A DNA stretch of 60,218 bases from Halorubrum alkaliphilum (GCF_017873815.1 NZ_JAGGKQ010000018.1:1-60218); one strand, 5' to 3'. Shown: positions 21,008 to 50,341, counted from the stretch's first letter. Made by a program: numbers and translations. The notes: generated from the letters alone by a model not told the origin.

Positions 21008-21015
21008 CGCAGATA

Positions 21016-25025: not shown

Positions 25026-25715
25026 TTACGAGAACTCCGGTCGCTCAGCATACGCAATCGGATCGCGTGACCCAGCATTCCGAAACGCCTCAAGCCGGAA
25101 CGCACACGCATCACACGTCCCACACGCTGGCTCTTCGTCACGGTAACACGACCACGTCATCTCGTACGGCACGCCAAGCTCCAACCCCCGCTCCGCAATC
25201 TCCGTTTTCGACCACTCGACGAACGGCGCTTTCAGCTCGATCTCCGTCTCCGGTTTCGTGCCGACGTCGATCACGTTCTGAAAGGCGTCAAAAAAGGCGG
25301 GGCGACAGTCGGGATACCCAGAGAAATCTTCCGAGTGCGCCCCAATAAACAGCGCCTCTGAATCAGTCGCCTCCGCGTACGACGTCGCCATCGACAACAG
25401 ATTGGCGTTGCGGAAGGGGACGTACGACGTCGGAATCTCATCACTCTCAAGATCCGCGTCGGCCACGTCCATCTCCTCATCCGTCAGGCTCGACGCGCCG
25501 ATTTGAGAGAGATGGCCCGTTTCGATGTGGAGGAAGTCAGCCGCATCGACCTCCTCAGCAAGCGCCTGTGCGCACTCGAACTCTTTGTCTTCGGTGCGTT
25601 GCCCGTACGACGTATGGAGAAAGTACGGCTCGTACCCTTGCTCCATTGCTTCGTACACCGCTGTCGCACTATCCATCCCGCCGGACACCAGAATCACCGC
25701 GCTTTTGTTGCTCAT
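25026..25715 (-). CDS. queC: QueC, 7-cyano-7-deazaguanine (preQ0) synthase
   Basis: 229 residues. The PP-loop ATP pyrophosphatase motif SGGMDS lies at residues 11-16, and the C-terminal zinc site is CYRDEEPACGTCDAC. QueC converts 7-carboxy-7-deazaguanine and ammonia to preQ0 with ATP. In haloarchaea preQ0 feeds archaeosine in tRNA; here it could also feed the DpdA-like genes next door. The start ATG is at 25715, 94 bases after the queE stop. Its last 114 bases occur twice more upstream in the window (6636-6749, 7853-7966), which points to use as an integration site. Confidence 0.95.
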   Translation of the reverse strand: MSNKSAVILVSGGMDSATAVYEAMEQGYEPYFLHTSYGQRTEDKEFECAQALAEEVDAADFLHIETGHLSQIGASSLTDEEMDVADADLESDEIPTSYVPFRNANLLSMATSYAEATDSEALFIGAHSEDFSGYPDCRPAFFDAFQNVIDVGTKPETEIELKAPFVEWSKTEIAERGLELGVPYEMTWSCYRDEEPACGTCDACAFRLEAFRNAGSRDPIAYAERPEFS

Positions 25716-25809: not shown

Positions 25810-26586
25810 TCATGTTCCCGGGGCGTCGTTCCATAGGTCCACGTGCAGTCGCGGCGTGTACCGGTAGCCGTACTCCATCGCTAACTCGGCGACCTCGCTT
25901 CGCGTCCCATCGAGTTGCTCGCGCGTCATGCCCTCCGGCATCAACAACACGTCATCATCGGCGACGGTCGTCGCCGTCGCTTCTCGTACCCGATCAACCA
26001 GGTCCGTGATCTCTGGGAGGTCCGATTCGTCGGTCACGACGAACTTGAGCTGCGTCTCGTACGCATCGACCATCTGGGAGAGCGCATCCATGTCGATCCG
26101 ATTCTGTTCGTGTTTCTCTTCCCACTCGCCCTCCCCCTTCGGGTCACGCTCCGGTGTCGGCGTGCTGCTCGCCAGTTTTGGGCTGATACTCGCCAGATCG
26201 ATCGGCGCATCCCGGTAGATCGTCCCGTTCGTCTCGATCGTCGCGTGATACCCCTCTTCGTCGAGCCGTTCGAGGAGTTCGACGGACTCCTCGTGGATGA
26301 GTGGCTCGCCGCCCGTGAGTACGACGTGGTTCGCCTGCTCGTGGGAGCGGACTTCCTCCAAAATCGAGTCGACGTCGCGCCACGCGCCGGTCGGCTCCCA
26401 CGACGTATGGTACGAATCACAGAACCAACACCGCAGGTTACACCCAGAGGTCCGCACAAAGACAGAGGGGACGCCAGCAAGCGTTCCTTCCCCCTGTAAC
26501 GAGTAGAACACCTCGTTGATCGGGAGGCCCTCACCAGCCGCGTCAGCGTCCGTTGTGGGCTCCTCGACGTCGCTTGCGACCGGCAT
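25810..26586 (-). CDS. queE: QueE, 7-carboxy-7-deazaguanine synthase (radical SAM)
   Basis: 258 residues. The radical SAM cluster motif is CNLRCWFC (C-x3-C-x2-C), preceded by NEVFYSLQGEGTLAGVPSVF, a QueE hallmark. VVLTGGEPL follows and the C-terminus reads TPRLHVDLW. It makes 7-carboxy-7-deazaguanine from 6-carboxytetrahydropterin, the step before QueC. The ATG at 26586 overlaps the queD stop, so both are coupled in one operon. Confidence 0.95.
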   Translation of the reverse strand: MPVASDVEEPTTDADAAGEGLPINEVFYSLQGEGTLAGVPSVFVRTSGCNLRCWFCDSYHTSWEPTGAWRDVDSILEEVRSHEQANHVVLTGGEPLIHEESVELLERLDEEGYHATIETNGTIYRDAPIDLASISPKLASSTPTPERDPKGEGEWEEKHEQNRIDMDALSQMVDAYETQLKFVVTDESDLPEITDLVDRVREATATTVADDDVLLMPEGMTREQLDGTRSEVAELAMEYGYRYTPRLHVDLWNDAPGT

Positions 26587-27047
26587 TAGTAGGTCGCACA
26601 GAGCTCGCCGGTTTCGCTCACCGACACGGAGACGTCCGAGACGGTGTCTGGGAACGCCTCAAGCATCCGTTGTTCGAGGAGGACGCTCATCACCTCTGCC
26701 GTTGGTGGGTGATCGAGGACGACGAGGGCGTCGCCGTCGCCGGCCTGCTCGAACGCGTCAACGAGCGGGTCGCCTTCCTCAACGAGGAACCGGTGGTCCC
26801 AGGCGTCGATGACGTCCGTGACGTCGCCTTTGTCGACGACCCACCCTTCCTCGGTGAGTTCGCCGCTTACCTCGACGGTGATCTCGTAGTTGTGGCCGTG
26901 TGGCCGCGAGCATTTCCCGTCGTGGTGGAGGATGCGGTGGCCCGAGCTGATTCGGATGGGGTTGTCGGCTCCGATGTGGAGTGTTCGTTGGCCTGCTTCC
27001 TGAAGCACATCTGCTTCGGATTCGTCTCTCGATATACTTCGGGCCAT
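26586..27047 (-). CDS. queD: QueD, 6-carboxytetrahydropterin synthase
   Basis: 153 residues from ATG 27047 (MARSISRD). Zinc-binding histidines occur in SSGHRIL and in HGHNYEI, with the catalytic cysteine just before in KCSRPHGH; WVVDKGDV and WDHRFLVEE complete the family pattern. It converts dihydroneopterin triphosphate to 6-carboxytetrahydropterin. A longer frame to 27209 runs through the TATA box and is rejected. It is the first gene of queD-queE-queC. Confidence 0.94.
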   Translation of the reverse strand: MARSISRDESEADVLQEAGQRTLHIGADNPIRISSGHRILHHDGKCSRPHGHNYEITVEVSGELTEEGWVVDKGDVTDVIDAWDHRFLVEEGDPLVDAFEQAGDGDALVVLDHPPTAEVMSVLLEQRMLEAFPDTVSDVSVSVSETGELCATY

Positions 27048-27067
27048 ACTCGAAGAATATTCGGGGA

Positions 27068-27077
27068 ATATATAAAG
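27068..27077 (-). promoter_or_regulatory. TATA box of the queD-queE-queC operon
   Basis: The minus strand reads CTTTATATATT, a near-perfect archaeal TATA box about 25 bases before the ATG of queD. It predicts a leaderless transcript and fixes the queD start. Confidence 0.7.
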
Positions 27078-27227
27078 ATTGAGTTTCGTTACTTCATCGA
27101 TGGAACAGCAGCACCACTCACGATCGTCTCTCCGCCGACTCTCTCGTTGGCCATCGGTACCCACCTCAGCCGAGCCGCAACACAGCACCGTACGCGGTGG
27201 TCCGGTCACAGACGGTGGTGACAGCTG

Positions 27228-27887
27228 ATGGAGACTGAAGATACTCGTGCGATCTTTACAGCCGTATTCGCCGGCTCAATCGTCCTCGCAAACGTCCTCG
27301 CAGCGAAACTGACGTGGATCGAGCTGCCGGGGCTTGGCGGTGTCGCCGTCCCTGCTGGGTTCGTTGCGTTCGGCGTCGCGTACCTCGCCTCGGACTTGCT
27401 CGTCGAGTACCACGTGAAAGAGTACGCTGCGACTGTGGTCAACGGAACCGTCGTCACGCTCGTCATCGCGTATGCGCTCGTCTTCCTCGCCATTTGGATG
27501 CCGTCTGCACCGTTCTACGGTGGGCAAGAAGCGTTCGTGTCGACGCTTGGCGGCTCCGCATCGATCATCCTTGCCTCCGTCGTCGCGCTTGCCGCCGCCC
27601 AACATCTCGACGTCCGACTCTTCGCCAATCTGAAGAGTCGCACCGGAGGTCAGCATCGCTGGATCCGGAACTGCGGCTCCACGGCAATTAGTCAGGGCGT
27701 GGACACGGTCGTGTTCATCACACTCGGGTTCGCCATCTTTCCGGCACTCGGCCTTGGCGGGGACCCGACGTGGGGTTGGGCGCTCGTGTCGATCGTTGCT
27801 GGGCAGTACATCGTGAAGTTGTTTGTCGCGCTGATTGATACGCTCCCGTTCTACGCCGTTACGGAGTTCGTGGAGCGGCCGGCTTGA
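27228..27887 (+). CDS. Queuosine-precursor (VUT/YhhQ) family transporter
   Basis: 219 residues, six hydrophobic segments, starting AVFAGSIVLANVLAAKL. The family signature appears in FVAFGVAYLASDLLVEYH (positions about 43-60) and in WIRNCGSTAISQGVDTVVFI. YhhQ-type proteins take up preQ0 or preQ1. The gene is divergent from queD and adjacent to the synthesis operon, so salvage and synthesis of preQ0 are placed together. Confidence 0.9.
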   Translation: METEDTRAIFTAVFAGSIVLANVLAAKLTWIELPGLGGVAVPAGFVAFGVAYLASDLLVEYHVKEYAATVVNGTVVTLVIAYALVFLAIWMPSAPFYGGQEAFVSTLGGSASIILASVVALAAAQHLDVRLFANLKSRTGGQHRWIRNCGSTAISQGVDTVVFITLGFAIFPALGLGGDPTWGWALVSIVAGQYIVKLFVALIDTLPFYAVTEFVERPA

Positions 27888-28332: not shown

Positions 28333-30315
28333 ATGCCGGAATTTGAAATAGAGTTGGATAACGAGGAGGAATTCGGTCGGCTAGGAACATTAGATGTCCC
28401 TCATGGCCCAGTCAACACACCAGCGCTATTTCCGGTAGTGAATATTATTGGGGGAACAACCCCGAAATCGGGAGCTGCGTGGCGACATTTCCGAGACAAT
28501 CTTCTCGATAAGGATCACGTCCAGGGAGTGATGTTCCAGGCGATGAGCTTCCTAGACTACGGAGTTACTGCGAATACGCTCGGACGATGGCGAGATGAGA
28601 CGTTTAGGGAGAAACTGGGTGATGACTTTGTAGATATCAAGTGCCCGATATTCATCGACTCTGGTGGATTCAGTTTGATGAACTCGGATACGTTTGGAGA
28701 TCCGCCTTCTGAGGGGGGAAAAGAAAATGAATGGGGGTTATATACGAATCCGGACAGCATTCTCAAGCTCCAGGCTGATTTTGGAGGCGACATTGTTGCG
28801 ACACTCGATTATCCAATTCCACCCGAGCTCCGCGAAGCTGAGAAGACCGAACGAATGCAGCGCAGTATCGAAAGTGCCGTGCGATGTCTACAACTCATCG
28901 AAAATCCGGAGCAGATTGAAACACGTAATGAGGGCGATCAAGCGAGCATCGAAAGGTTACGTAATAGGAAGACTGAGGGTACCGATCCGGGAGTCTTCGT
29001 CGCAATTCATGGACATGACTACGAGACGATCAGCTGGTATGTCCAAAATTTCCTAGACAGGATACAGGAAGAAGGTATCACACACCGGTTCAATGGTTTT
29101 GCGATCGGATCACTCGTTCCACTTCGAAGCCGAACGAATCTTCTAGTTGATATCGTTCAGGGTGCAAAAGACGCGATCCCAGCCCACTTGGAAGATGAGA
29201 TCGCGTTACACATATTTGGTGTCGGGGGCAAACAAGTGTCCCTCCTCACGCTACTAGGGGCAGATTCGTTCGACTGCTCTACACATATGCAGACTGCTAG
29301 GTATAAGAAGTATGTCGTGCCAGGTACTTGGGAGCATATCAGTCTGGACAATATGGAGGAGTTCTTAGATGACGGCGAATTCCCATGCGAATTAGAGCAC
29401 TGTACGCTCCGTAATCACCCAGAATGGGATCCGAAATCTGTGCGTGAGCGGCTAAATATGGAACCAACCTATGGAGCGGGTCCAACAAAAACGGAACCAT
29501 ATGGGCTGCTTGCGCGGCATAACTTCGAAGTATATAACGACGAGATGCGACGAGTTCGTGAGAAAATTCGGGACGGAGAGCTCCTAGAATACATAATCCA
29601 ATTTGCCCGAGATCACGAGCAAATCAAGCAGGGGCTCAAATATGCTCAAATACGTGATAGGAAACTACAACAGCAACTTCGGGAACGGGGTGCATACGAT
29701 CTGATTGTTGGTCCCGATATTGAAACTGACCAGGCAAAGCTCACAGAATTTGGCGGAGGTGTTGATGATCAGACACACCAACAGCGCGTCTCGCTTCAGC
29801 ACACACCGAACAGTTTCAATATTCTCAATCATCGGTACACGCCACCAGCAGGAAAGAACATCCTTCTGCTTATTCCGTGTAGTAAGCGAAAGCCATACGC
29901 AGAATCTAGAACGCATCGAGTCGTCATCAAACGATTACAGGAACGCCGCGACAATATACATAAAGTGACAATTTCGGGGATGTACGGGCCAGTCCCGGAA
30001 GAGCATGAAACAGATAAGGAAGTGATGGAATACGAGTACGTACTATCTGAACAAGATACGGAACAAATAGAACTTGTCCGTGATCGTCTAATCTCATATT
30101 TACAAGAACACGGTGAGTCATATGATCTGGTAATTGGCTATGCTGCCAGCAGCACCTACCGTGGTGTTATCCAAGATGCGCTGAATGCCTACGGACAGGG
30201 TGAGCTCTTCCCTAAGGAACCAGAGGCGTTACGACTAACGGAACATTTCCGCAAAGAAAATATCAAAGAACTAATGGAGTATCTTGACATTTCAACCGAA
30301 GATATGAGCCTCTAA
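28333..30315 (+). CDS. dpdA: DpdA-like deazaguanine DNA transglycosylase fused to an ArcS-like domain
   Basis: 660 residues. Residues 1 to about 420 are a tRNA-guanine-transglycosylase-type barrel: DSGGF at 109-113 (general-base region), ATLDYPIPP near 160, FAIGSLVPL near 257-264 and GADSFDCS at 309-316, whose second aspartate aligns with the catalytic nucleophile. A CELEHC pair may help bind zinc. Residues about 505-660 carry PCSKRKPYAESRTH (515-528), the PC-x3-KPY-x2-S-x2-H signature of archaeosine synthase. The tRNA-binding PUA domain of archaeal TGT is not evident. Known DpdA proteins exchange guanine for preQ0 in DNA, and ArcS turns preQ0 into archaeosine. Insertion plus amidation in one chain is my inference. 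It is the first gene of a rightward cluster and lies beside the preQ0 genes. Confidence 0.8.
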   Translation: MPEFEIELDNEEEFGRLGTLDVPHGPVNTPALFPVVNIIGGTTPKSGAAWRHFRDNLLDKDHVQGVMFQAMSFLDYGVTANTLGRWRDETFREKLGDDFVDIKCPIFIDSGGFSLMNSDTFGDPPSEGGKENEWGLYTNPDSILKLQADFGGDIVATLDYPIPPELREAEKTERMQRSIESAVRCLQLIENPEQIETRNEGDQASIERLRNRKTEGTDPGVFVAIHGHDYETISWYVQNFLDRIQEEGITHRFNGFAIGSLVPLRSRTNLLVDIVQGAKDAIPAHLEDEIALHIFGVGGKQVSLLTLLGADSFDCSTHMQTARYKKYVVPGTWEHISLDNMEEFLDDGEFPCELEHCTLRNHPEWDPKSVRERLNMEPTYGAGPTKTEPYGLLARHNFEVYNDEMRRVREKIRDGELLEYIIQFARDHEQIKQGLKYAQIRDRKLQQQLRERGAYDLIVGPDIETDQAKLTEFGGGVDDQTHQQRVSLQHTPNSFNILNHRYTPPAGKNILLLIPCSKRKPYAESRTHRVVIKRLQERRDNIHKVTISGMYGPVPEEHETDKEVMEYEYVLSEQDTEQIELVRDRLISYLQEHGESYDLVIGYAASSTYRGVIQDALNAYGQGELFPKEPEALRLTEHFRKENIKELMEYLDISTEDMSL

Positions 30316-30389
30316 TCCGCCTTATGAGAGATCTTGTCTAGAGTAAGAACACCAGTAACGTTAAGGCCGAGGTGAACAAAGCCGTCCCT

Positions 30390-30848
30390 ATGCAAACTCT
30401 CTTAGTACAGTCCTGCTCTAAATCCAAGAGAGAACCAAGTGAGCCGGTTCCTGCGCTAGAATTGTACTCCGGATACTACTACAAAATTATAAAGAAAGCG
30501 AAACGAGAAGATGATTTTGACCCGAATATTGATATTTGTATTCTTTCAGCAAAACATGGCCTAATTGATTCTGACACGAATCTCTCTTTCTACGACAAAA
30601 AAATGGACTCGGGGCGTGCTCTAGAGATTCGGGACGAAGTGAAAGAGGCTCTTAAGAGTCGACTTCATGCTCATACGTACGACGAAGTTCTAATCAATAT
30701 GGGCCAGCCCTACAGAGAAGCGATCCGCGGAATCGAAGAGGAAATCGACACTCCAGTCCATGTAATAGAGGGAAAGCTCGGAGAACGAGGTCGAAAATTG
30801 AAACAAAGAATTCGACAAAGTGCTCCTAGTTCTGTGGGGGCCGATTGA
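30390..30848 (+). CDS. Small DUF6884-like protein related to the ArcS/DpdA accessory fold
   Basis: 152 residues. It begins QTLLVQSCSKSKRE, then ALELYSGYYYK, LSAKHGLIDSD, YDKKM and INMGQPYREAI, the pattern of the DUF6884 family, which often accompanies DpdA. The C-S-x-x-K segment recalls the PCSxxK motif of the ArcS domain in the preceding gene, so it may share that fold and act on the same base. The ATG at 30390 was preferred to the upstream in-frame GTG (30372) because a TTAAGG-type box lies about 25 bases before it. It overlaps the next gene by TGATG. Confidence 0.7.
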   Translation: MQTLLVQSCSKSKREPSEPVPALELYSGYYYKIIKKAKREDDFDPNIDICILSAKHGLIDSDTNLSFYDKKMDSGRALEIRDEVKEALKSRLHAHTYDEVLINMGQPYREAIRGIEEEIDTPVHVIEGKLGERGRKLKQRIRQSAPSSVGAD

Positions 30849-32092
30849 TGGCTGTGGATAACCGACTTCAGCAAGCCGCTGGGTTCAATATTGAGGGAAC
30901 AACAGGTGACGCCCGTGCCGGGGAACTCACTATTAATGGGGTTTCGATGGAGACACCCAGTCTCTTTCCGGTGATCAATTTCTACGGGGGTGGACGAAGT
31001 GGTAGTGTCTTTGGTGGGAGCACTCACCGTACTGTTAAAGAACTCATCAACGGTGATGACAGGGTCGCTGGCGTTGATTGTAGCCATATATTCGAAGGAG
31101 CCATGATGTCGGTTGGGTCTCTTACTGATTATGGCATCAATCGAGATCTCCTACAGACCTACCTTTCTTCACCAATAAAACGGCGCGCTGAGTTTCACGG
31201 ATTTGAGGGAATCATATTCGCGGACTCTGGTGGATACAAAAATCTGACACAAGGGGCCTTAGACGGGAGTGACTTTGAGCTCGAAATGAACCAAGCGCGC
31301 GTGTTCGAGATGCAACAGCAACTCGGCGGGGAAATCATCGTTAACCTTGATATTCCTATCGAACCAGACGATTCATTCGAAGAGCGCTGTCGGAAAGCTC
31401 GTCTGACTGCCGAAAATGTAGACGAGTTTCTTGAGCTGTCCAAGGACTACCCCGCAGCTCGCTATCTCACTGTCCATGGGTATAATTACTCGATGATAGA
31501 CACCTTTATGCAGGAGCTACAGAGCATACTGGGAGATATCGATATTTCTGCCACTTTCGACGGGATTGCGCTTGGCAGTCTCGTTCCTAAAAAAGATGAT
31601 CGGGAATTGCTTATCAACGCCGTTCAAGGCTGCCGCGATGTCATGGCTGAACGGGGTTTTGACGACCTCCCGCTTCACGTTCTCGGGATCTCGAATACAG
31701 CGATTCCGCTGCTTGCAGCCGTTGGTGCGGATACCTTCGACTCCTCTTCATACATGCAAGCTGCGATCAACGGGAAGTACTACAAGTCCCTTCTGAGCAC
31801 GGTTAGAGTCGAAGACGCGGACTTCAAGGATTGCTCCTGTCCCGTATGCTCTTCACCAGAACTCCGATCCCGGATGAACGGCAATACACAGTATCGCAAA
31901 GACCAGATGGGTCCAGCGGCTGTCCACAACTTATACGTACAAATGACTGAGCTCAAGAACATCCGTGAGAGGATACAAATGGATGGTACAGACGGTCTGG
32001 TTGACTATATCGAAAATACAATTGGTCGCAACGATAGTACGCGAAAGCACGCTCATCGCGTCGTCAACGAATCACTTGGAGGGTACTTCTAA
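30848..32092 (+). CDS. Second DpdA/TGT-like transglycosylase
   Basis: 414 residues. Barrel motifs match the first paralogue: FADSGGY at 125-130, VNLDIPIEP near 165-173, IALGSLVPKK near 240, GADTFDSS at 293-300 with the nucleophile-position aspartate 298. It carries a proper TGT-like zinc cluster CSCPVC (329-334). No ArcS-like tail. Two diverged transglycosylases in a row suggest a heteromer (compare eukaryotic TGT, where one subunit is non-catalytic) or two target specificities. Both keep the key aspartates, so both could be active. The stop overlaps the next start (TAATG). Confidence 0.8.
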   Translation: MAVDNRLQQAAGFNIEGTTGDARAGELTINGVSMETPSLFPVINFYGGGRSGSVFGGSTHRTVKELINGDDRVAGVDCSHIFEGAMMSVGSLTDYGINRDLLQTYLSSPIKRRAEFHGFEGIIFADSGGYKNLTQGALDGSDFELEMNQARVFEMQQQLGGEIIVNLDIPIEPDDSFEERCRKARLTAENVDEFLELSKDYPAARYLTVHGYNYSMIDTFMQELQSILGDIDISATFDGIALGSLVPKKDDRELLINAVQGCRDVMAERGFDDLPLHVLGISNTAIPLLAAVGADTFDSSSYMQAAINGKYYKSLLSTVRVEDADFKDCSCPVCSSPELRSRMNGNTQYRKDQMGPAAVHNLYVQMTELKNIRERIQMDGTDGLVDYIENTIGRNDSTRKHAHRVVNESLGGYF

Positions 32093-33678
32093 TGAAACGA
32101 ACACCAACAGTCAATGAAGTCAACGAGTTCCTCGAAATTGCCAGTGATTTTGAGGATCCGCTTGAATTACTCCGTGAATCACTCTCGAACGCGTTTGATG
32201 CAGGGGCTGAATCTGTTGATATCAGAATCAAGTCCCAACCGGACGGCTCTGACATCATTATTGAGGACGACGGACACGGGATGAACGAAGAGGATCTCAA
32301 ATCCTTTTTCGATCTCGGTAACTCAAGCAAGACTGACTCAATCGGATACAAGGGACACGGGACAAAGATATTCTACAAAAGCGATCATATCAAAGTGAAT
32401 ACGAGTAGAGATGGTATCACTCTCTCTGCCGAGATGAAAAATCCGTGGGAAAAGCTCAATAACCGAGTTCTTCCCGAATATGACGTTACAAAGACGGATG
32501 CTCCATCATCCCGATCTGGCACGCTAATACGGATTAGTGGATTCAAATCAGGGGAAGGGTTTAGTCCGGAATCACTCACCTATCCGAAGGTCCATAATTA
32601 TCTGAAGTGGAAGACAATCGTGGGCTCCACGGCGCACTTCTTTGAAGATGATTTTCACGAGATGGATATCACAGTTGAACTGGACGACGAGATTGACGAT
32701 TCGCGTGAGCAGCTCACTACCACAAATAAATTCGAATTCCCGTCGGAACAGCTCCTACCAGGTGACGGGGAATTCCCCGCTGAACGCATGTGTAAGTTGT
32801 ACGGCCCAAATGAAATAACGCTGAACCACGCAGAGGGAACCTCTACTGTCGAAATAATGGGGATGGCAGGTGGAAAAGCAGCACGCAACGAACTCCCTAC
32901 ATTCGGTCGACATTCGACGCAGTTTGGTGTCTGGCTAGCAAAAGATCACATTAAGGTTGAGCGGTTGAACGAAGCCATCTCACATGATAATGAGTTCATC
33001 CACTTTCTTTTCGTGGCAAATTGCCAGGACATAGAGCTCTCGGCCAACCGTGGCAAGATCCGGAATAAATCGAGTAGTGTCTATCAGGCTCTCGAAGAGG
33101 AGCTCAGTCATTTTCTCTCGAAAGTCACCCACGACCCGTGGTTCGAAGGTTATCTAGAAGCTCGACGCCAAGGAGAATTAGCCCGAAAAGCTTCCTCAGA
33201 ATCAACTAAAGCTCACGACCGTGTTGACCGCATCAAATCGAGAGGTCGATTCATGCCAAGTAATGATGCGGAGATTCTCTTTGGGCTACAGCGGCCCTCC
33301 GCCCAGAGTAACGCCCCTGAAATCTTTGTTGAGGATTACCATCCCACAGACGATATTACAGCCATCGTCCGAACCGATGGAACGCTTCAGGCAGCCGCTG
33401 TCAGTTCAACCTTAGTCGATTATTTCGATGATGAAGGCCCGTTGGAACCAGCAGAGCTACTTATTTGCTGGGAGTGGGGAGACACGGACGAATTGCGAGA
33501 GATCCAGCGTACTGGCTACCTTGGCAGCGACGTTGATATTGATTTTGAGCGATCAAAAGTCAGCTACGAGACAAAGGATGGTATTAGTGGCTCTTGTGAT
33601 GTGATCATTGTTAGTAAGTATATTGACACACCTATGGTTGAAGAAGCTGGAACAGTGTCCTCTACATCAACAGACTGA
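32092..33678 (+). CDS. GHKL (Hsp90/MutL/MORC-like) ATPase
   Basis: 528 residues. The Bergerat ATP site is complete: N box ESLSNAFDAG at about residues 30-39, G1 box DDGHGM at about 63-68 and G2 box GYKGHGTK at about 85-92. A conserved second domain follows (HDNEFIHFLF, ANRGKIRNKS), as in MORC or HSP90-like proteins. The last 100 residues are unrecognised. GHKL ATPases clamp or remodel nucleic acids and recur in defence islands. It overlaps the upstream transglycosylase gene and is convergent with the nuclease gene at 33735. Confidence 0.8.
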   Translation: MKRTPTVNEVNEFLEIASDFEDPLELLRESLSNAFDAGAESVDIRIKSQPDGSDIIIEDDGHGMNEEDLKSFFDLGNSSKTDSIGYKGHGTKIFYKSDHIKVNTSRDGITLSAEMKNPWEKLNNRVLPEYDVTKTDAPSSRSGTLIRISGFKSGEGFSPESLTYPKVHNYLKWKTIVGSTAHFFEDDFHEMDITVELDDEIDDSREQLTTTNKFEFPSEQLLPGDGEFPAERMCKLYGPNEITLNHAEGTSTVEIMGMAGGKAARNELPTFGRHSTQFGVWLAKDHIKVERLNEAISHDNEFIHFLFVANCQDIELSANRGKIRNKSSSVYQALEEELSHFLSKVTHDPWFEGYLEARRQGELARKASSESTKAHDRVDRIKSRGRFMPSNDAEILFGLQRPSAQSNAPEIFVEDYHPTDDITAIVRTDGTLQAAAVSSTLVDYFDDEGPLEPAELLICWEWGDTDELREIQRTGYLGSDVDIDFERSKVSYETKDGISGSCDVIIVSKYIDTPMVEEAGTVSSTSTD

Positions 33679-33734: not shown

Positions 33735-34910
33735 CTACTCCCGTGGAATCCAAGGCTTTAGCGAGGGGTCGAAATCAGCCAATTTTCCGCTATGTCCGCT
33801 CGTTTCAGGAGCCAGCACCCCGATGTGTTTGAGCTGTTGGACAAAGTTTTGGAATATGTTTGACCGAACCGCTGCTTTCCAGATTTGCTCGTCTTTGAAG
33901 ATTTGGTCCGCATCACCGGACTCAATAAGAGCACGTGCTTGCTCTCGGCCAGATTCAGACCGACCTGGTGAAGGATTAGCAGTGCAAAAGACGTTCAAGA
34001 ATACGTTCGGGTATTGATTGACGAGGATTTCCACCAGCTCCGGGAATGGGAGTTCACCGGAAACCTCGGAAAGGGCTTGAAATAAGAGCCTGATCTCCGG
34101 GTGCTCAGTATACTGAGACCGAAGAAGTGTCGCTATTTGCGGGTGCTCATCAGCAACAACAGTCCCCCTGGGGGGTTTCAGTTGTTCCAACTCATCGAGT
34201 TCGCTTACACCATATCCGTTGAGCATCGTGCCGGCAAGTCTTCCACGGTCGGTGAGCTTAGATTTATTCTCATCAGATATTAGGCCTAAAACGACGGCAC
34301 CATCATAGATATGCTCGGGTGCATGGAAGTCGTATTCATCTACAATAATATCGTGGAGAGCTGCCTTCGAAACTGATTCACGCTCTTGGAGGATGAGCGT
34401 CGGGGCAAGGAAATTAATGGGTTGTGTGAGCGCCATTCCAGCAATCTCTCCGGCTGACCCACGGCGTTGTAGGCGATACTTGAGTTGCCCAGCAACGTCT
34501 TGAACGTGTACATTAGCCTCCGTCACTGCGGGATTGGACCACTCACTGTTTGTATTATCTACTTCGATCATGCCAAGTCCTTTTGAAAGGGCAACGCTCG
34601 ACACTTGCCGAATAGCTTTAGAATCAGCAGCTAGGTAAGATATGTGAGCCCCTTGTTGATAGGTCAATGCCTGTCCAATCCCCTTCAACATATCACCAGT
34701 ACCCTTCACCTCTATCGCAAAAATACGATTAGTGTTGGTAAATCCAATCACGTCCGGAAAACGCCCCCCAATACTGATTCTGTGTTCACCACACCGCTCA
34801 ATCACCGATCGATATCGGGTGGAATGGGACCCAGGAACGTGAACAAATGCATCATATCCTCTGTCCTCAAGATCGTCTACGACTTTCTCGAAGACTTCCG
34901 GTTCCTCCAT
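33735..34910 (-). CDS. PD-(D/E)XK nuclease-like protein
   Basis: 391 residues. The N-terminal 130 residues form a restriction-endonuclease-like core: GRFPDVIGF supplies the aspartate, IFAIEVKG the E-x-K, and a later glutamine-containing helix GIGQALTYQQGA completes the Holliday-resolvase-like pattern. The rest is helical, perhaps a winged-helix or target-recognition part (VSKAALHDIIVDEY; LTDRGRLAGTML). It is the only minus-strand gene in the cluster and starts at ATG 34910 opposite the promoter region of the PglZ operon. Probable cutter of unmodified DNA; that role is inferred. Confidence 0.75.
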   Translation of the reverse strand: MEEPEVFEKVVDDLEDRGYDAFVHVPGSHSTRYRSVIERCGEHRISIGGRFPDVIGFTNTNRIFAIEVKGTGDMLKGIGQALTYQQGAHISYLAADSKAIRQVSSVALSKGLGMIEVDNTNSEWSNPAVTEANVHVQDVAGQLKYRLQRRGSAGEIAGMALTQPINFLAPTLILQERESVSKAALHDIIVDEYDFHAPEHIYDGAVVLGLISDENKSKLTDRGRLAGTMLNGYGVSELDELEQLKPPRGTVVADEHPQIATLLRSQYTEHPEIRLLFQALSEVSGELPFPELVEILVNQYPNVFLNVFCTANPSPGRSESGREQARALIESGDADQIFKDEQIWKAAVRSNIFQNFVQQLKHIGVLAPETSGHSGKLADFDPSLKPWIPRE

Positions 34911-35467: not shown

Positions 35468-37342
35468 ATGCCAGCCGATCACTTCGCCTCTCTTGTGTCA
35501 GAATTAGAATCTCGAAGAGGACCTAGCTATCTACTACTCTACCCCGAAGAGATGGACCGTGGTGACACTATACGGAAGATCAGAGAATCATTCACACAAG
35601 CCTCAGTGATAGAGACAGAACAACGGTCTATCATGGATATCCAACCTGTTGGCTCCGGCCCGCACATCGTTCCTTTGCTCGACTTGTCTGAGGCGACTAC
35701 ACCAGATGAATCGGAGGATCAGGCACTGAAGAGTCTCTGTGAGACATCACAGATAATATTCATCGCCCCTGACTGGTTCGAGATATGTCTGAATTACCCA
35801 TCTCGTCCACGATGGACCTCGAGAGTTGACGTTATTCGACCTCTGGACTCGTCTTCGATAGAGGAGGTTATCACTCGGTTCCCCTCTTCAGCACCTCTTC
35901 TCGATAGGAGTCAGCGTCGGATAATGTATCGATACTTGGAGAATCGTCGATTCCGGAGGGCTGTCGAAGCGATGTCCCCTGAAACAAGTGAGCGTATCAA
36001 CTCGGAGATTGAGCGGTACAGTCTCAACAGTCTCTCGAGTGAGGTCCAGCACTTACTTCCCAAACCGAATGACTCGCTGTTCCGTTCGCTTGCCGCCACC
36101 AAATTGCAAGAACTGGGTCATCTACAGTTGGCGGAATTCTATAGAATTTACGGGGAAAGTAGAACGTTGAGCAGTGTCCCAGAGGACTCACCATTCATCA
36201 ATGCTATCTCGGATTCTCTTGTTGATGAGCTACCTCCGCCTCCATTCGAATCGACCGGAATACGAGTTCTGTTCAGCCTGCTCTTCCGACAGCACGAAAC
36301 AGAGGAAGTTCTTACTGAAGAAGTTCACGAGTGGCAATCCGAAAATCCATCAGATTGGAGGAAACCTGCCGATTCCGGACTGCAGGAATATATCGTGGAC
36401 AGGGTTGATTTGCTGAACAACATCTGTTCTAGTGCCAATCTGAGGGACTTTTACCGTCTTCTTCCCATCTTACTCTTCATTCGTATAATCCGTCACTCCC
36501 CCGCGACTACCGACCTCTTGGAGGGAATCGATCGATACCGGGAGATAAAGAATATCGAAATGACAAAGCTGGCTACAAAATCACTCGCTGATGGTTATCG
36601 GGGTAACGAATACGACGATCTCCACAATGTCGAGCGCATCGCCCGATTTTTAGAGGGTCATCGTCCGAAAGTAGTGCTCGTGGTTGACTCGCTGAATTTG
36701 ATGCAGCAATCCACTCGAGATCTCGTCCAACGTTACCAGAAAGATACACCTGGATATGCTCTCGCACCGCCCGTCTCCAAAACTGATACATTTGTCGACG
36801 AACTTCGTCAGCGAGTCGATTTCGACACACTCGGTGGATATACCGATGGTGAAGATTTAGCCAATAATTCGATTCGAGAATTTGTCAATCTAGACGAAAA
36901 AAGAGAGGAGTTGACGGAACGTCTGAACACTGGTGAGTCATTCATCATATACGATCCGAGACTCGACGTACAGGCCCGATATGAGCAGAGCCGTGATGTG
37001 GAAGTCAATCAATATGTCAGCACGATCGAGAACTTTATCAAGAGCTATCGAGGTGTTGCAGATATCATGGTAACATCTGATCACGGAATGGTTCAGGTTC
37101 AACCCGAGCTCTCAGTAAGCGGAATAGGAGGTGGAACACATGAAAGAGGTCTCCTCACGAAGGAACAGAATCTAAGTGGTGATGATATGATAGAAGTTGA
37201 ACTCGGTACAGATTACAGGGAAGGTTTATTAACACCAGCGAATCCACATAGCCGTATTGGTTCACATAACGAGCCGCTCTGGACACATGGGGGAATCTCG
37301 GTCGAGGAATCGATTGTGCCCTGCATAACCGTAGAGGACTAG
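35468..37342 (+). CDS. pglZ: PglZ-type alkaline-phosphatase-superfamily protein
   Basis: 624 residues. The C-terminal half has the metal sites of the alkaline phosphatase superfamily: VVLVVDSLNLM near residue 403, MVTSDHGMVQV near 535 and THGGISVEESIVP near 604. The HGG-S-EE-VP ending is typical of PglZ, the signature protein of BREX and Pgl systems. The N-terminal 380 residues are a helical region of unknown function. PglZ proteins act with methyltransferases and ATPases in phage exclusion; here no methyltransferase is present and the modification role falls to the transglycosylases. It is the first gene of a six-gene run with gaps of only two to five bases or overlaps. Confidence 0.82.
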   Translation: MPADHFASLVSELESRRGPSYLLLYPEEMDRGDTIRKIRESFTQASVIETEQRSIMDIQPVGSGPHIVPLLDLSEATTPDESEDQALKSLCETSQIIFIAPDWFEICLNYPSRPRWTSRVDVIRPLDSSSIEEVITRFPSSAPLLDRSQRRIMYRYLENRRFRRAVEAMSPETSERINSEIERYSLNSLSSEVQHLLPKPNDSLFRSLAATKLQELGHLQLAEFYRIYGESRTLSSVPEDSPFINAISDSLVDELPPPPFESTGIRVLFSLLFRQHETEEVLTEEVHEWQSENPSDWRKPADSGLQEYIVDRVDLLNNICSSANLRDFYRLLPILLFIRIIRHSPATTDLLEGIDRYREIKNIEMTKLATKSLADGYRGNEYDDLHNVERIARFLEGHRPKVVLVVDSLNLMQQSTRDLVQRYQKDTPGYALAPPVSKTDTFVDELRQRVDFDTLGGYTDGEDLANNSIREFVNLDEKREELTERLNTGESFIIYDPRLDVQARYEQSRDVEVNQYVSTIENFIKSYRGVADIMVTSDHGMVQVQPELSVSGIGGGTHERGLLTKEQNLSGDDMIEVELGTDYREGLLTPANPHSRIGSHNEPLWTHGGISVEESIVPCITVED

Positions 37343-37345
37343 ATT

Positions 37346-38314
37346 ATGGTTAATTATCCACCTCCAAAAGGAAAGTACGAGGCGCTTCTTAATGTTGTAA
37401 AGGTTCTGGCTGAAGACGGTCCGTTGTCCCCAAAAGAGCTTGTTGAGAAGGATGAGATACGAGCATTCGGGTATTCAGAAGCTGACGGGACAACACTAAG
37501 CCCGGGAAATAGCTCTCAAGCATACGACGAACTTGAGGATGTCCTAGGTGTCGTCACCAGCAATACAAATCGGAACCTTCGACTTACTAGGAGCTCCGAA
37601 GAAACCGACCCGTTCCTTCCAGATGCAAGTGGAGAAGGACTGGCCACCCTGCTGAATTCCGATGGCAATCAAGAGTTACGACGTGCGGAGGTGACGGCAT
37701 TCTTACTCAGGAAACTGAATACCTATGATATGAGTATCCAGGGGGGAACAATCGACAAGGCATTCCACGAATTCACGAGAGTTCTCTGGAGAGAACGCGA
37801 TTCTACGACCGGTGTTTACAAATCTGACTGGTCGCCAAAAAACCTCATCGGGAGTGATAAGCTTCCAGGTGGCGGTAAGTGGAATAATAACAAGGTCAAG
37901 TTTATCCGGGATCGGGCAGTCAATCTTGGGGTAGCAGAGCGTGAATACACGAATGCGGGCAGAGATAATCTCCTACCGGTCTTCAGTACAGACGTTTTCC
38001 AAATTGGCTTCTATCTCACTTATCAGTACTTCAAGCAGCAGGAGAACGAAACGAGCCCTGAATTTGAAGAATTTTATCAGAAATTCAAAACTGCGTGGTA
38101 CCCCCTTCCAAGAGAATTCTACAATCGACATATCATGACTCAAGGACTATTAGCCCGTGAAACGATTATCTCCAGAAACTCACATCCGATTCTCTATTCG
38201 AAATTGGAAGAGGAAAACGAAGCTCAAGAACAATTCAAAGTTAGACACTTTGAGGCGGAGACGGCATGGAGTGAGGACATCACAGCGAGCGAATTCGAGA
38301 TTGAGGCAGTATAA
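37346..38314 (+). CDS. DpdG-like protein, probable winged-helix adaptor
   Basis: 322 residues. The N-terminus could be a winged helix: YEALLNVVKVLAEDGPLSPKELVEKDEI followed by YDELEDVLGVVTS and a wing with NRNLRLT. The central part is helical with tryptophan-rich segments (FTRVLWRERDS, DWSPKNLIG). No catalytic motif. Size and the position directly before a roughly 1000-residue ATPase match the DpdG-DpdH order of bacterial dpd clusters as I remember it; sequence similarity was not tested. Starts three bases after the pglZ stop. Confidence 0.6.
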   Translation: MVNYPPPKGKYEALLNVVKVLAEDGPLSPKELVEKDEIRAFGYSEADGTTLSPGNSSQAYDELEDVLGVVTSNTNRNLRLTRSSEETDPFLPDASGEGLATLLNSDGNQELRRAEVTAFLLRKLNTYDMSIQGGTIDKAFHEFTRVLWRERDSTTGVYKSDWSPKNLIGSDKLPGGGKWNNNKVKFIRDRAVNLGVAEREYTNAGRDNLLPVFSTDVFQIGFYLTYQYFKQQENETSPEFEEFYQKFKTAWYPLPREFYNRHIMTQGLLARETIISRNSHPILYSKLEEENEAQEQFKVRHFEAETAWSEDITASEFEIEAV

Positions 38315-38316: not shown

Positions 38317-41238
38317 ATGGTAAATGAAAGTCTTCAACCAGTCTTTGGTATCGATCCGAAGCGATTCAATCAAACATTCGCCGAATACTGGCAGGACAAG
38401 GATAGCAGCGAGAACCGTGTTCATGTCGAAACAATCGTCGAACGGGAGGTGATAGATGCAGTCGATGAATGGAGTAACCGAATTTATCAAGAAGCCCAGA
38501 GTGAGGACCAGAGCACTGGTCTCTTTCTGATAATCGAGGGTGCACAGGCAACAGGGAAAACGGCGATGACGAGATACATTCGAGATCAACTGGACCCCCT
38601 CGAAAACACGTCTCGTCAAAATCTACCAATTGTCCTCCCAATCTGGCAGAAGGCCGATAGCAACCCAAGTTCATACAAATACCTCCAACAACTCCAAGAT
38701 GAGGGCGAAGAATATCTTAAGGAGCTTGAGAACGTCCCAGATTTAAATAAGAAGCTCCAGCTTCTAGAGCAAATAAGTACCCAACTTTCAGAAGAAGAAC
38801 TGTCCGCATTAACAGATGGGACGGACATTTCGGGAACCCAGTTCCAGAAGCTAGCAGAGCGGGCTGGATTCTTTGAAGGGGAAATGAATCCGTCGGATGT
38901 AGTCTCCGAACTTACTTCCAAGGGATACACGTTCGTGTTTATCTTTGATGAAATGGTCCCCTCTCATGCAAAGGAAGAGGCTCAAAACGTGCTAAAGTGG
39001 TTTGAGAAGCATCTCAATCCGCATGTGGGCTTCGTCCTGTTCTGCCACCCGGACATCTCGTCTATTACTCGTGATGATATGTTCGATCAGATGCGACGCC
39101 GGAATGGTGATATCACCCTTAATATTGCTGGTACAGAGCACCGGCTAGACGAGAACCACATCATAAACATCCGCGGACGGCAGGATGAGCTGATCGACCT
39201 TCGGCAGCTTCTGAACGAGTATTTCGATGATGTCTACCTTGATGAGCCAGAAGAAAAGTATGGGCCATTTACTGAAGCGAATCTTGAATGGATGAACTCT
39301 TTACTCGGGGCTCATGGACTAATTGGGAATCTTATTGATGGCGTTGGCTCTGCAATGAAGCGGTACGCGAAAGACGCCGATGAATCGAACGAGTATGGGG
39401 ATATAGGTGCGTATCTCTATGACGAATGCGACCGCGCGATGAAGAGTGCCCGACTCAAAACGGCATTCCGATCTGTCAGCAGCCTCGATCCGGATGACCG
39501 TACAGAGGATGTGGCCATCGCAAAAGAGCTCATAGTCGGCTCCAGGAGCGTAGATGACCTCTCTAATAAGCAGAAGGAAACGCTTGAGGACGCGCTAGTA
39601 CTGTACGATGACGATGGTGACCTCAAGATCCACCCTAAATTACTGGATCCCAATTTCGGCACCTCAGATTCAAATATTGAATCCGACTCTCGAGAGCGAC
39701 TCATCGATGAATATCTCCGGAAAGCTGAGGAATTTGAGTCGGAACTAGAGGATGCAGATCGAGATGAACTCCGCCATGATATCGAGGATGCATTAATAGA
39801 CGTTATCGAATGGTTCGGAACCCAACGAGCGAACATAACAGACCGATCCACGCTCTCGGTCCCTGGTCTCGACAGCCCTACATTCGCAGAGACAACCTTC
39901 TCACGGGTGGAGACTGGGGGACAGGCCGAAAAAATTCAGCCGAGATCGGGGGGATTAGAGCAGTACGAAGGCGAATTCCTCACATTCGCACTCTTAAAAG
40001 ACGAATCACTGGCCGATAGCGGAATAAAGAACAAAATCCAAGACTTATATAATAAAGACTATCGAGATTCTGGAATTTTCGTCTTCACTGACGAACCCCC
40101 CGAGAGCTGGGAGAACCCTGACTGGCTCACAGATCAGATATCTACCCACCGTCAATGGACTCCCGATTACACGTGGGGGGATGTTGTCGAACGCGTCTAC
40201 GTATCCAACCTCCAAGAACCGCGAACAATCAGCCGGATCTGTGACAACCGAAATTTCGAAACCGTCGTAGATCGGATATCAGCAATCCAGGCACTCTCTG
40301 AGGATCATCTAGCGCCCGATCTGTACGAGAACTTTATGGGACTAGCCAGTCGACTTCATGAAGGTGCTATCAACCTACAGGATAATATATACCTGAAGTA
40401 CGATGGTCCAACGCTTTCCGAAGCCAAAGCGCTCAAAGAAGTGAAAAAGTTAGTCGAGGAGCACGGATTCATCACCGTAGATGACCTCATCAGCCTCCGT
40501 GGCGATTATCGTCACGAGCTAGAGGCACTCATTGAATCAGGTGGTCTTAAGGAAATCGACGGTACTAATGATACATTCGTGTTCTTGGCAGATGAGTACG
40601 GAGGGATATCCCATCTGACTGGGCGGAGTGTCAATGATCTTCGCAACCTCCGTCCGATTCCAGTTCCTGTTCTGGAAGAACTGGAGGAGATTGCCAAGAT
40701 GCAGGAGGATTTGCAATCCGTCTACCAGAATCAGGACATCAAGGACGCTCTCACCGAACTCGAAGAAGCTGAATCACTAATTAATCATTTCGTCACCAAA
40801 GACAAGAAACTCGAACAGCTAACTGAAGAGATGACCGATATTAGTTCACTCACCTCTGTTCGAGACGATATGGAGTCTGTCGTCGATAATTTCAATTACG
40901 ACGCCTACTCCCGAATAACACCAATGCTGGAAACGGATCGAAAAATTTGGAACGAGATTCAGGAGTTAGAGGATGCAGATATCTCGGATATTCATCGGAC
41001 GCTATTCTACGCTCGGCTAGTTGAAAAAACTCCGAATGCTGCGGAGGACTATCTAGATGATGATGAGTATTACCCCTATTTGTTGTACAAATCCGAAGAC
41101 CAAATCCGCGATATGCTGGTACAACTCCAAAATAAGGAGGATGAAAAAGTCAACGGCTATGAAAAGCAGACAGAATCACTTACTGAGAAACGTCGGAAAG
41201 TAAGAACATTTGTCGAAGGGGGTGATACCGATGAGTAA
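38317..41238 (+). CDS. Large P-loop ATPase, DpdH-like / BrxC-like
   Basis: 973 residues. Walker A GAQATGKT at about residue 75-82 and Walker B TFVFIFDE near 205; a strand GFVLFCHPDISS follows, as in STAND/BrxC-like ATPases. A helical middle part and a C-terminal coiled-coil region (about 790-970) full of E, K and Q follow. Such ATPases organise the complex in BREX and Dpd systems. It begins two bases after the upstream stop and overlaps the next gene (ATGAGTAA). Confidence 0.7.
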   Translation: MVNESLQPVFGIDPKRFNQTFAEYWQDKDSSENRVHVETIVEREVIDAVDEWSNRIYQEAQSEDQSTGLFLIIEGAQATGKTAMTRYIRDQLDPLENTSRQNLPIVLPIWQKADSNPSSYKYLQQLQDEGEEYLKELENVPDLNKKLQLLEQISTQLSEEELSALTDGTDISGTQFQKLAERAGFFEGEMNPSDVVSELTSKGYTFVFIFDEMVPSHAKEEAQNVLKWFEKHLNPHVGFVLFCHPDISSITRDDMFDQMRRRNGDITLNIAGTEHRLDENHIINIRGRQDELIDLRQLLNEYFDDVYLDEPEEKYGPFTEANLEWMNSLLGAHGLIGNLIDGVGSAMKRYAKDADESNEYGDIGAYLYDECDRAMKSARLKTAFRSVSSLDPDDRTEDVAIAKELIVGSRSVDDLSNKQKETLEDALVLYDDDGDLKIHPKLLDPNFGTSDSNIESDSRERLIDEYLRKAEEFESELEDADRDELRHDIEDALIDVIEWFGTQRANITDRSTLSVPGLDSPTFAETTFSRVETGGQAEKIQPRSGGLEQYEGEFLTFALLKDESLADSGIKNKIQDLYNKDYRDSGIFVFTDEPPESWENPDWLTDQISTHRQWTPDYTWGDVVERVYVSNLQEPRTISRICDNRNFETVVDRISAIQALSEDHLAPDLYENFMGLASRLHEGAINLQDNIYLKYDGPTLSEAKALKEVKKLVEEHGFITVDDLISLRGDYRHELEALIESGGLKEIDGTNDTFVFLADEYGGISHLTGRSVNDLRNLRPIPVPVLEELEEIAKMQEDLQSVYQNQDIKDALTELEEAESLINHFVTKDKKLEQLTEEMTDISSLTSVRDDMESVVDNFNYDAYSRITPMLETDRKIWNEIQELEDADISDIHRTLFYARLVEKTPNAAEDYLDDDEYYPYLLYKSEDQIRDMLVQLQNKEDEKVNGYEKQTESLTEKRRKVRTFVEGGDTDE

Positions 41239-42082
41239 CCAACCGGAGAGCGAAGAAGATTCGATTGATAGAACAGATATTGAGACGGCTCCATCGCTCC
41301 AAGAGACCGATCTAGAAGATGCACCTGTGAAGACGCTAACCGAACTCGATTACCAAGAGTCGATCCAGAATATCGGTAATATTGACTCCCAGTTAGATAA
41401 CCTCTCTGATGCTACTGCATATATTCAACGTGTGCAGAGCGCTATCAAGGACCTGAAATCAGAATGTGGTATCACTTCGTTACAAGAACTTGACGAGTCG
41501 GTTGAGTCGAGATATGTCAAAATTGGTGAAGTCCTCATAGAACAAGTCGACGACGAAGAAGTACTATTCAAGACTAGTGACGAGCCGGAGAAACTCGTTA
41601 CTGATATCGAGGATTATTTCGATGCGTTGGAAGACGAGTATGAGCGCCAATCGGCATTAAAGAGAGCTCGGGAGGATCTGAAAGAGTGTAGAGCTGAGCT
41701 GGAGGACCACCCTGGAACAGACGTCAATGAGGCAATCAGTATTTACAAAGACCAGCAGGAGAAACTCGAGACCGCCCATCATTTCCTCCAACTCAAGGAT
41801 GGTGAGTGTAGTAGGTGTGGTGTGAAATGGGAAAATATAAGTAAAAATCGTCGAAGCGAGATTGAGCAGAAGCTAGAGGAACTGGAGGAAGAGTTTGAAC
41901 CAGATGGTGGGAAATTCGATGAGAATTTCGCTCGGGAGACGAAAACCTCCGTTGATTCGAGCCTAGATGAACTTGAAGATCTACAAAACAAAATCCGAGG
42001 ACTTGAGGACGAAATCGATCGCCACGAGCGGCAAGATACCGATACCCTCGATCGTCTCTCTACGACCTACGTGGAGGGCTAA
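41231..42082 (+). CDS. Coiled-coil protein with a zinc-hook-like CxxC, DpdI-like position
   Basis: 283 residues from ATG 41231, overlapping the ATPase stop. Two coiled-coil arms (about residues 110-185 and 205-265) flank GECSRCGVKWENIS, a single CxxC that could dimerise by zinc as in Rad50 hooks. The N-terminus is acidic. Without an ATPase head it cannot be a full SMC-like protein; it may bridge or tether. It is placed between the large ATPase and the helicase. Confidence 0.65.
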   Translation: MSNQPESEEDSIDRTDIETAPSLQETDLEDAPVKTLTELDYQESIQNIGNIDSQLDNLSDATAYIQRVQSAIKDLKSECGITSLQELDESVESRYVKIGEVLIEQVDDEEVLFKTSDEPEKLVTDIEDYFDALEDEYERQSALKRAREDLKECRAELEDHPGTDVNEAISIYKDQQEKLETAHHFLQLKDGECSRCGVKWENISKNRRSEIEQKLEELEEEFEPDGGKFDENFARETKTSVDSSLDELEDLQNKIRGLEDEIDRHERQDTDTLDRLSTTYVEG

Positions 42083-50087: not shown

Positions 50088-50341
50088 GCGATGATCGTGA
50101 TGACGGTCGTGGTGAAGATGATGGTGATGGTGTGTGGCCTGGTGAGTCGTATGATTCGCGGAAGGATGAGGTGGTGGAGCCGACGGGGTCGCCGGGGTCG
50201 GTGCAGGAGGTTGTGAGTGATGCGCAGGAGGAGTCGGAGTTGGAGGGTGAGTTGAATGAGGTTGCGTCGGTGACTGATGCGGGGAGGTCGGTGCAGCGGG
50301 TTGTTGAGGAGCCAACTGATGGTGACGGTGATGGTGAGTGA
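50084..50341 (+). CDS. Small, extremely acidic protein of the RAMP operon
   Basis: 85 residues starting with GTG in a GTGA overlap with the Cas7-like gene. More than a third of the residues are D or E; no hydrophobic core is evident, so it is probably disordered. The frame is supported by the overlaps at both ends. It could be a DNA-mimic-like regulator or linker protein; no family recognised. Confidence 0.5.
   Translation: MSDDRDDGRGEDDGDGVWPGESYDSRKDEVVEPTGSPGSVQEVVSDAQEESELEGELNEVASVTDAGRSVQRVVEEPTDGDGDGE

Follow-up and report, generated by a model that had tools for sequence, protein, structure and literature searches.

A candidate 7-deazaguanine DNA modification cassette of haloarchaea with two intact transglycosylases, one fused to an archaeosine synthase core

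In cells, 7-deazaguanine marks in DNA are known mainly from the bacterial Dpd systems, in the form of 2'-deoxy-7-cyano-7-deazaguanosine (dPreQ0) and 2'-deoxy-7-amido-7-deazaguanosine (dADG). The phages 9g and nt-1 carry deoxyarchaeosine (dG+) or dPreQ0 in their DNA, via DpdA or DpdA2 with Gat-QueC or ArcS. The subject of this work is a gene cassette in a 60,218-nucleotide stretch of the genome of Halorubrum alkaliphilum (GCF_017873815.1, NZ_JAGGKQ010000018.1:1-60218; the whole stretch is referred to here as the window), conserved in about one tenth of the haloarchaeal relatives of this species. It consists of two genes of the tRNA-guanine transglycosylase (TGT) family (A and C), a DUF6884 gene between them (B) and a GHKL ATPase gene, and it probably swaps guanine in the cell's own DNA for an altered guanine that is remodelled in place, as a self mark for virus restriction. 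Two closely related systems have been described by comparative genomics. According to the main text of the preprint, BRIGADE is a cluster for a predicted 7-deazaguanine derivative, occurs only in halophilic archaea and includes YprA-like helicases (two, one of them ARMADA-like) and phospholipase D (PLD) or PD-(D/E)xK nucleases (Bell et al., 2025; PMC12458937). BRC (BREX-Related Capture, BREX being bacteriophage exclusion) is presented in its main text as a combination of PglZ, a BrxC-like ATPase, a BrxA-like protein, HerA (universal) and a TGT, with no DpdB or DpdC homologue, dPreQ0 alone being suggested as the product (Rakesh and Krishnan, 2026; PMC12839542). The main text on BRIGADE is silent on ArcS, archaeosine and transglycosylases, and that on BRC on archaeosine and DUF6884. 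As far as these texts go, haloarchaeal systems with a predicted 7-deazaguanine cluster and the joining of PglZ, HerA and TGT were already known, and the original prediction, made from the window alone, went too far in stating that no such cellular system had been described. What is added here, and is named in neither main text, is an intact TGT fused to an ArcS core, the second TGT that almost always accompanies it, a portable cassette completed by DUF6884 and GHKL proteins, and a bacterial branch.

Gene A (28333..30315, + strand) encodes a protein of 660 residues in which a full TGT barrel (residues 15-429; Pfam TGT, E = 4e-29) is followed by the ArcS core domain DUF5591 (residues 498-622; E = 5.5e-18, 65.7 bits against a Pfam cut-off of 26); TGT_C2 and PUA are both absent. 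The barrel has the DSGG motif at 109-112 and an aspartate at the nucleophile position (D314, in GADSFDC), and residues 515-528 (PCSKRKPYAESRTH) fit the ArcS signature PC-x3-KPY-x2-S-x2-H. Homologues (n = 27) are 40-58% identical to the window protein and have D109-SGG, D314, C516, S517, K520-P-Y, S525 and the S548-G-x-YGPVP loop, all invariant; across 39 A proteins, bacterial ones included, D109-SGG, D314, C516, K520-P-Y, S525 and SG-x-YGPVP remain invariant. The conservation of the active-site residues and the presence of the full-length fusion in 38 of the 391 haloarchaeal genomes searched (25 of 86 genera) place this observation beyond chance. The AlphaFold2 model of A (predicted local distance difference test score, pLDDT, 87) consists of two parts connected by a disordered linker (461-488). 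Its barrel corresponds to TGT structures by Foldseek, and TGT structures alone were found among the best 50 matches listed for the whole model. The fold of the C-terminal part therefore rests on the Pfam assignment, on a match of the A profile to AF0587 (2q07) over the ArcS-core region (E = 6e-10) and on a moderate profile match to gene B (hhalign probability 77%).

Gene B (30372..30848, + strand) is a DUF6884 gene (E = 8e-14, 52.3 bits against a Pfam cut-off of 30) with the motif C15-S16-x-x-K19 and a weak match to DpdC in PADLOC. Its AlphaFold2 model (pLDDT 89) has an ArcS-core/YaaA fold with a DpdC-like domain, and the top Foldseek matches are AF0587 (2q07) and Escherichia coli YaaA (5caj). 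The C-terminal domain of A and gene B probably belong, as distant relatives, to a single superfamily, which by its YaaA and DUF6884 matches also seems to include DpdC. Gene C (30848..32092, + strand) encodes a second intact TGT, which stands alone. It is listed as a 415-residue protein starting at TTG 30845, from which its residues are numbered here, but translation more likely begins at ATG 30848, overlapping the stop codon of B (tgATG). Residues 116-386 match TGT (E = 8e-26), with DSGG at 127-130, D299 in FDS and a complete zinc site, C330-x-C332-x2-C335...H361; 20 homologues of 45-62% identity all retain D127-SGG, D299 and the four zinc ligands. The two adjacent barrels with DSGG and the nucleophile-position aspartate, the ArcS-like fusion at 515-528 and the intervening C-S-x-x-K gene, all claimed at the outset, are thus confirmed. 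The GHKL (HATPase_c) ATPase gene (32092..33678, + strand; HATPase_c_3, E = 9e-14) overlaps the stop codon of C with its own start (TAATG), and in 20 of 20 loci it lies on the same strand as C, overlapping it or no more than 2 bp away. It is translationally coupled to C and completes the four-gene cassette. The nearest solved relative of A and C is the archaeosine TGT of P. horikoshii, with which both share the base-pocket segment G-x-x-VP (GSLVP versus GGVVP); a GGLAVGE-type segment takes this place in the preQ1-specific bacterial enzyme.

Neither A nor C could be assigned to the TgtA, ArcS or DpdA families, as their scores lie far below all three cut-offs. The TgtA model TIGR00432 (cut-off 350) gives 104.5 bits for A and 114.7 bits for C against 605.8 for the host TgtA, the ArcS model NF040592 (cut-off 440) gives 100.1 bits for A against 810 for the host ArcS, and the DpdA equivalog NF041059 of NCBIfam (cut-off 200) gives 30.2 bits for C and no match listed for A up to E = 1. 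In a tree of 44 sequences, A, C, DpdA and a third group of haloarchaeal TGTs were split from the tRNA TGTs (support 98/95), and A joined the bacterial A proteins with moderate support (79/86); the branches of 9g DpdA and E. coli Tgt are long, which limits how far the tree can order A, C, DpdA and the third TGT. The separation from tRNA TGTs was as foreseen, whereas the label "DpdA-like" does not apply, since both proteins also stand apart from DpdA. A TGT-family match was obtained in 58 of 59 sampled haloarchaea, nearly all of them with one TgtA-like and one ArcS-like place, which makes A and C extra genes. The host genome likewise encodes separate TgtA, ArcS and RaSEA proteins (RaSEA at G000:C5:189017, 443 bits against a cut-off of 212). 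Its ArcS has a half TGT barrel without DSGG, followed by DUF5591, TGT_C2 and PUA; gene A resembles ArcS/TgtA2, the partner of RaSEA, in having a TGT-related domain and then DUF5591 with PC-x3-KPY-x2-S-x2-H in one chain, and differs from it in its full, intact barrel and in the lack of both TGT_C2 and PUA. The lack of PUA was rejected as proof of a DNA substrate; it does distinguish A from ArcS, but has no discriminating value for C, since Pfam detects no PUA in the host tRNA TgtA either.

The nearest characterised enzymes of A and C act on tRNA, and ArcS is active on minimal nucleoside substrates (PMC11298593), so A and C might instead modify RNA, inserting deazaguanine into tRNA (perhaps at a position that serves stress or defence) or into some other RNA. 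We consider this unlikely, as the genome already holds a full set of TgtA, ArcS and RaSEA, A lacks the TGT_C2 and PUA of the host ArcS, the tree and equivalog scores place both proteins outside the tRNA families, and the genes are patchy in occurrence, carried on plasmids and accompanied by restriction-type neighbours.

Among the 391 haloarchaeal genomes, 37 have both A and C, one has A only, five have C only and 348 have neither (Fisher P = 3e-45, a value that ignores shared ancestry). Every one of the 43 genomes with A or C also has QueC, which is found in 289 of the full set of 391 (P = 9e-7); with so many haloarchaea possessing QueC, queC/E/D as genes exclusive to the cassette were rejected. 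A, B, C and the GHKL ATPase gene occur together in 20 of 26 fetched loci, beside differing effector modules, and genomes in which A stands alone usually have C elsewhere. In three of the five C-only genomes, those read, B, C and the ATPase gene are kept together with a GmrSD-type gene, and two of these three have a second, shorter DUF6884 protein, which suggests that A provides a tailoring function replaceable by another ArcS/YaaA-fold protein. The cassette could also be a chance neighbour of housekeeping queCDE and an unrelated defence island, with A and C as relics. The queC and queE genes adjoining the cassette in two other genomes (G153 and G133 in our numbering) share more than 90% identity with their window counterparts, which may mean that the que genes mark a fixed place in the chromosome, and a transposase-like gene lies at 46779-47945. 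This explanation is hardly credible in view of the invariant active sites of A and C, their near one-to-one co-occurrence even when far apart and the recurrence of these genes across 25 genera with widely differing flanks.

An intact pair of non-tRNA TGTs, an ArcS-core fusion, an adjoining preQ0 supply and restriction-like neighbours together make deazaguanine modification of DNA the best reading of the locus. We think it reasonably probable that A, B, C and the GHKL ATPase form the modification half of a restriction-modification-like defence, marking the cell's own DNA with a 7-deazaguanine base. The products of queC/E/D, whose family assignment is firm, would make preQ0 (7-cyano-7-deazaguanine). 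C, and probably A, would then replace guanine in DNA by preQ0 through TGT base exchange, using the acid/base aspartate of DSGG and the downstream nucleophile aspartate, which both proteins have within the TGT fold. The GHKL ATPase may load or open the DNA for C, a part ascribed to DpdB in the case of DpdA, and the inserted nitrile would be tailored in place by the DUF5591 domain of A and the DUF6884 protein B, a chemistry predicted from their domains. An effector module, composed here of a PglZ-like protein, a large ATPase, a YprA-like helicase and possibly a VRR nuclease, would restrict unmarked DNA, as its position in the neighbourhood suggests.

Several observations weigh against this scheme. 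The window copy of A has a leucine at the middle of three clustered zinc cysteines (the position matching C332 of gene C), a cysteine kept in most of the other A proteins compared. A is apart from C in six of the 26 loci, by up to 180 kb (G002), the strength of their association is overstated to the extent that shared ancestry contributes to it, and preQ0 genes are present in most haloarchaea anyway, serving tRNA archaeosine. The matches of the window PglZ and nuclease genes are weak. Several bacterial A genes, particularly in Poribacteria, adjoin ordinary metabolic genes, and B, C and the ATPase gene were not found near any bacterial A within the stretches read. Finally, DNA, rather than RNA or protein, is a substrate that we infer; of the deoxyarchaeosine in host DNA originally proposed, it is the deazaguanine modification of DNA that stands as the best reading, host DNA as the target and the final base being put forward conditionally.

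ArcS from T. kodakarensis adds lysine to preQ0 nucleosides and is active solely in complex with RaSEA, which then yields archaeosine; ArcS from M. jannaschii has been reported to use glutamine, asparagine or ammonia (PMC11298593). The proposal that A amidates the base to deoxyarchaeosine was, therefore, too specific. RaSEA is encoded elsewhere in the genome in H. alkaliphilum and two other haloarchaeal carriers, whereas it was above the cut-off in none of 15 bacterial carriers tested, so that a lysine adduct, dG+ and dADG are all possible products, perhaps differing between lineages. For the final base, the most likely candidates are a preQ0 amidine, lysine adduct or amide. It is also possible, though on balance less likely, that DNA is the substrate and that the ArcS core of A is a binding domain or a nitrile hydratase, leaving only dPreQ0 or dADG in the DNA, as in Dpd. 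Gene B resembles DpdC, the maker of dADG, RaSEA is missing from the A-carrying bacteria tested, some C-only genomes have two DUF6884 proteins in place of A, and the ArcS-encoding phage nt-1 has mainly dPreQ0, some dADG and little dG+ (PMC6884629). Against this, the invariance of C516, K520-P-Y, S525 and SG-x-YGPVP from archaea to bacteria goes beyond what a passive ArcS-core domain would need, and the haloarchaeal carriers tested do encode RaSEA. A bolder proposition, which we hold to be rather doubtful, is that the chromosomal DNA of some archaea and bacteria bears either a base of archaeosine type or a preQ0 amino-acid adduct so far unreported in DNA, made by a self-contained enzyme with TGT and ArcS core that serves as the exchangeable modification half of several defence systems. 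Two intact transglycosylases, one with an ArcS core, predict further chemistry in cellular DNA that is testable in cultured haloarchaea.

A scan of 84,980 species genomes also revealed full-length A in Poribacteria, Cyanobacteria, Chloroflexota, Deinococcales, Kuenenia and Thermodesulfovibrio, extending the chain of TGT and ArcS core to bacteria without RaSEA. In cyanobacteria, A is followed by a GmrSD_N protein and a HEPN protein, which favours the DNA-marking reading. Among the loci read, the archaeal cassette with all four genes is confined to Halobacteria. Metagenome-assembled genomes of Peptococcaceae and Desulfovirgula (L133 and L135) have a divergent TGT, a separate DUF5591 protein and an adjoining HerA-like ATPase (an assignment made by eye), an arrangement that is a split form of gene A. 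A phage origin was considered and rejected, as two scans of viral contigs gave no relatives of A or C and phage records gave weak TGT matches only.

The effector modules joined to the archaeal cassette are interchangeable and of PglZ/BREX-like, BRC-like and BRIGADE-like types. The window and genome G254 have a PglZ-like protein and a partner of the type encoded at 37346, to which the window adds a large ATPase and a YprA-like helicase. In G147 and G294, A and C lie beside a 932-residue PglZ-like protein, a winged helix-turn-helix protein, an ATPase of about 1300 residues and HerA, a module with BrxC/BrxA-like members that fits the BRC layout. About ten genomes have three small proteins together with a large helicase (mostly of about 1576 residues) and an ATPase that weakly matches nSTAND. 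On plasmids of Haladaptatus sp. YSMS36 (L075) and Natrinema sp. SYSU A 869 (L078), A is accompanied by PLD proteins like DpdK, DpdJ-like helicases and a second DEAD helicase; these loci fit BRIGADE and look like members of it. One modification module beside three kinds of effector thus links BRIGADE and BRC, which were described separately. Two plasmid arrangements add further TGTs. At 9139-13838 of L075, two A-type proteins (673 and 654 residues) and C make three non-tRNA-type TGTs, with a GIY-YIG-looking protein of 185 residues in between. Plasmids pHsi139 of Haloarcula sinaiiensis (L076) and pBNX82-4 of Haloferax alexandrinus (L169) carry the third, distant haloarchaeal TGT (344 residues) with queD and a BrxD-like ATPase, and that of Haloferax also a true DpdA (964 residues, C-terminal DUF6884); they represent another two-TGT system.

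The window itself, from a halophilic archaeon and with queC/E/D adjoining the cassette, resembles BRIGADE as its main text describes it. It differs in having a single YprA-like helicase, split into two genes, and a PglZ-like protein, and there is no PLD protein in the cluster, the VRR_NUC-like gene scoring below the gathering threshold. It shares a TGT with BRC, its PglZ-like protein giving weak matches to PglZ, and differs from it in the DUF6884 protein B and the ArcS core of A; no HerA/FtsK gene was found in the cluster (21016-46588), the HerA gene at 7962-10010 adjoining a Rad50-like gene. With the bacterial Dpd system of the S. Montevideo type it has in common a preQ0-inserting type of TGT, a DUF6884/DpdC-type tailoring domain, nearby preQ0 genes and a DpdJ-like helicase. 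A and C, however, miss the DpdA cut-off by a wide margin and branch apart from DpdA, an ArcS core joins DUF6884 in the cassette, and no match to DpdB (a DGQHR/ParB-like ATPase) was obtained among the cluster genes, which include the GHKL ATPase instead. Phage G+ modification relies on separate, phage-borne proteins, in contrast to the fusion in A. That no system combines these activities in one chain, as first stated, is contradicted by the host ArcS, with its half barrel and DUF5591, and by the DpdA of Picosynechococcus and Paenibacillus, in which DUF6884 is fused to TGT. In both of the latter (L077 and L170), DUF6884 is N-terminal and a second TGT gene lies close by; the one-chain insert-and-tailor idea and the pairing of TGTs thus exist in the Dpd branch too.

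Type IV CBASS (cyclic oligonucleotide-based antiphage signalling system), with Cap9 and Cap10, is another anti-phage defence combining a TGT-family protein with deazaguanine chemistry, although there a QueC-like enzyme joins the deazaguanine to protein. Cap10, a member of the TGT family so used in defence (PMC11996544), has a weak match to C, which raises the question of whether the TGT fold here conjugates or reads deazaguanine on a protein. This is very unlikely: Cap10 has been described as remodelled for binding a modified protein N-terminus, while the catalytic dyad is complete in both A and C, and family scans of the cluster genes detected no CD-NTase or Cap9-like protein.

Upstream of the cassette lie the genes for preQ0 supply: queC, encoding preQ0 synthase (25026..25715, - strand; Pfam QueC, E = 2e-73) and the sole full QueC gene of the genome; queE, encoding the radical SAM 7-carboxy-7-deazaguanine synthase (25810..26586, - strand; Radical_SAM, E = 7e-18), which adjoins queC and queD and is kept beside the cassette in other genomes; and queD, encoding 6-carboxytetrahydropterin synthase (26586..27209, - strand; PTPS, E = 3e-20). 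A QPTR/YhhQ-type transporter (27228..27887, + strand; Vut_1, E = 1e-36) of the queuosine-precursor uptake family may take up preQ0. Downstream, a possible VRR-NUC/PD-(D/E)xK nuclease gene (33735..34910, - strand; VRR_NUC, E = 9e-4, under the gathering score) has homologues adjoining the cassette in several loci. The putative effector module begins with the PglZ-like gene (35468..37342, + strand; weak, C-terminal matches to BREX PglZ), followed by a gene for an unknown protein (37346..38314, + strand) conserved next to PglZ in G254 (58% identity), by that for the large P-loop ATPase of 973 residues (38317..41238, + strand; weak AAA_16), with the same gene order in L093, and by a coiled-coil protein gene without a reliable family match (41210..42082, + strand). 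The 973-residue ATPase was discarded as a homologue of the 969-residue ATPase of the Natrinema locus, there being no recognisable homology. The YprA-like DEAD helicase (42088..45915, + strand; DEAD, E = 5e-19; PADLOC DpdJ, E = 2e-36, and DruE, E = 8e-36) is 27% identical, across some 1,400 aligned columns, to the 1571-residue helicase of that locus (L078), one of two helicases there. The next gene encodes an MZB (MrfA Zn-binding) protein (45905..46588, + strand; MZB, E = 8e-12), which is the C-terminal module of a YprA-like helicase as a separate gene.

Other parts of the window contain further genes of interest. A row of HerA-like ATPase, NurA-like, Rad50-like and Mre11-like genes occupies 7962-15617 (- strand), and a similar row (619, 430, 1098 and 410 residues) directly adjoins the cassette in G254 (L069). 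Possible RAMP-type genes, with weak Csm3-like and Cmr3-like matches in PADLOC, are present at 49131-52572 (+ strand); a regular repeat array looked for nearby was not found. At 18875-22203 (+ strand), a 710-residue protein of no known family is paired with a BrxD/SngB-like ATPase (SngB, E = 8e-24; BrxD, E = 5e-14), possibly as a separate Shango- or BREX-like unit. The adjacent region (22330-23844, + strand) encodes a 504-residue fusion of a zinc ribbon, the C-terminal domain of RNA polymerase subunit H/Rpb5 (E = 2e-22) and a BrxC/D-type ATPase.

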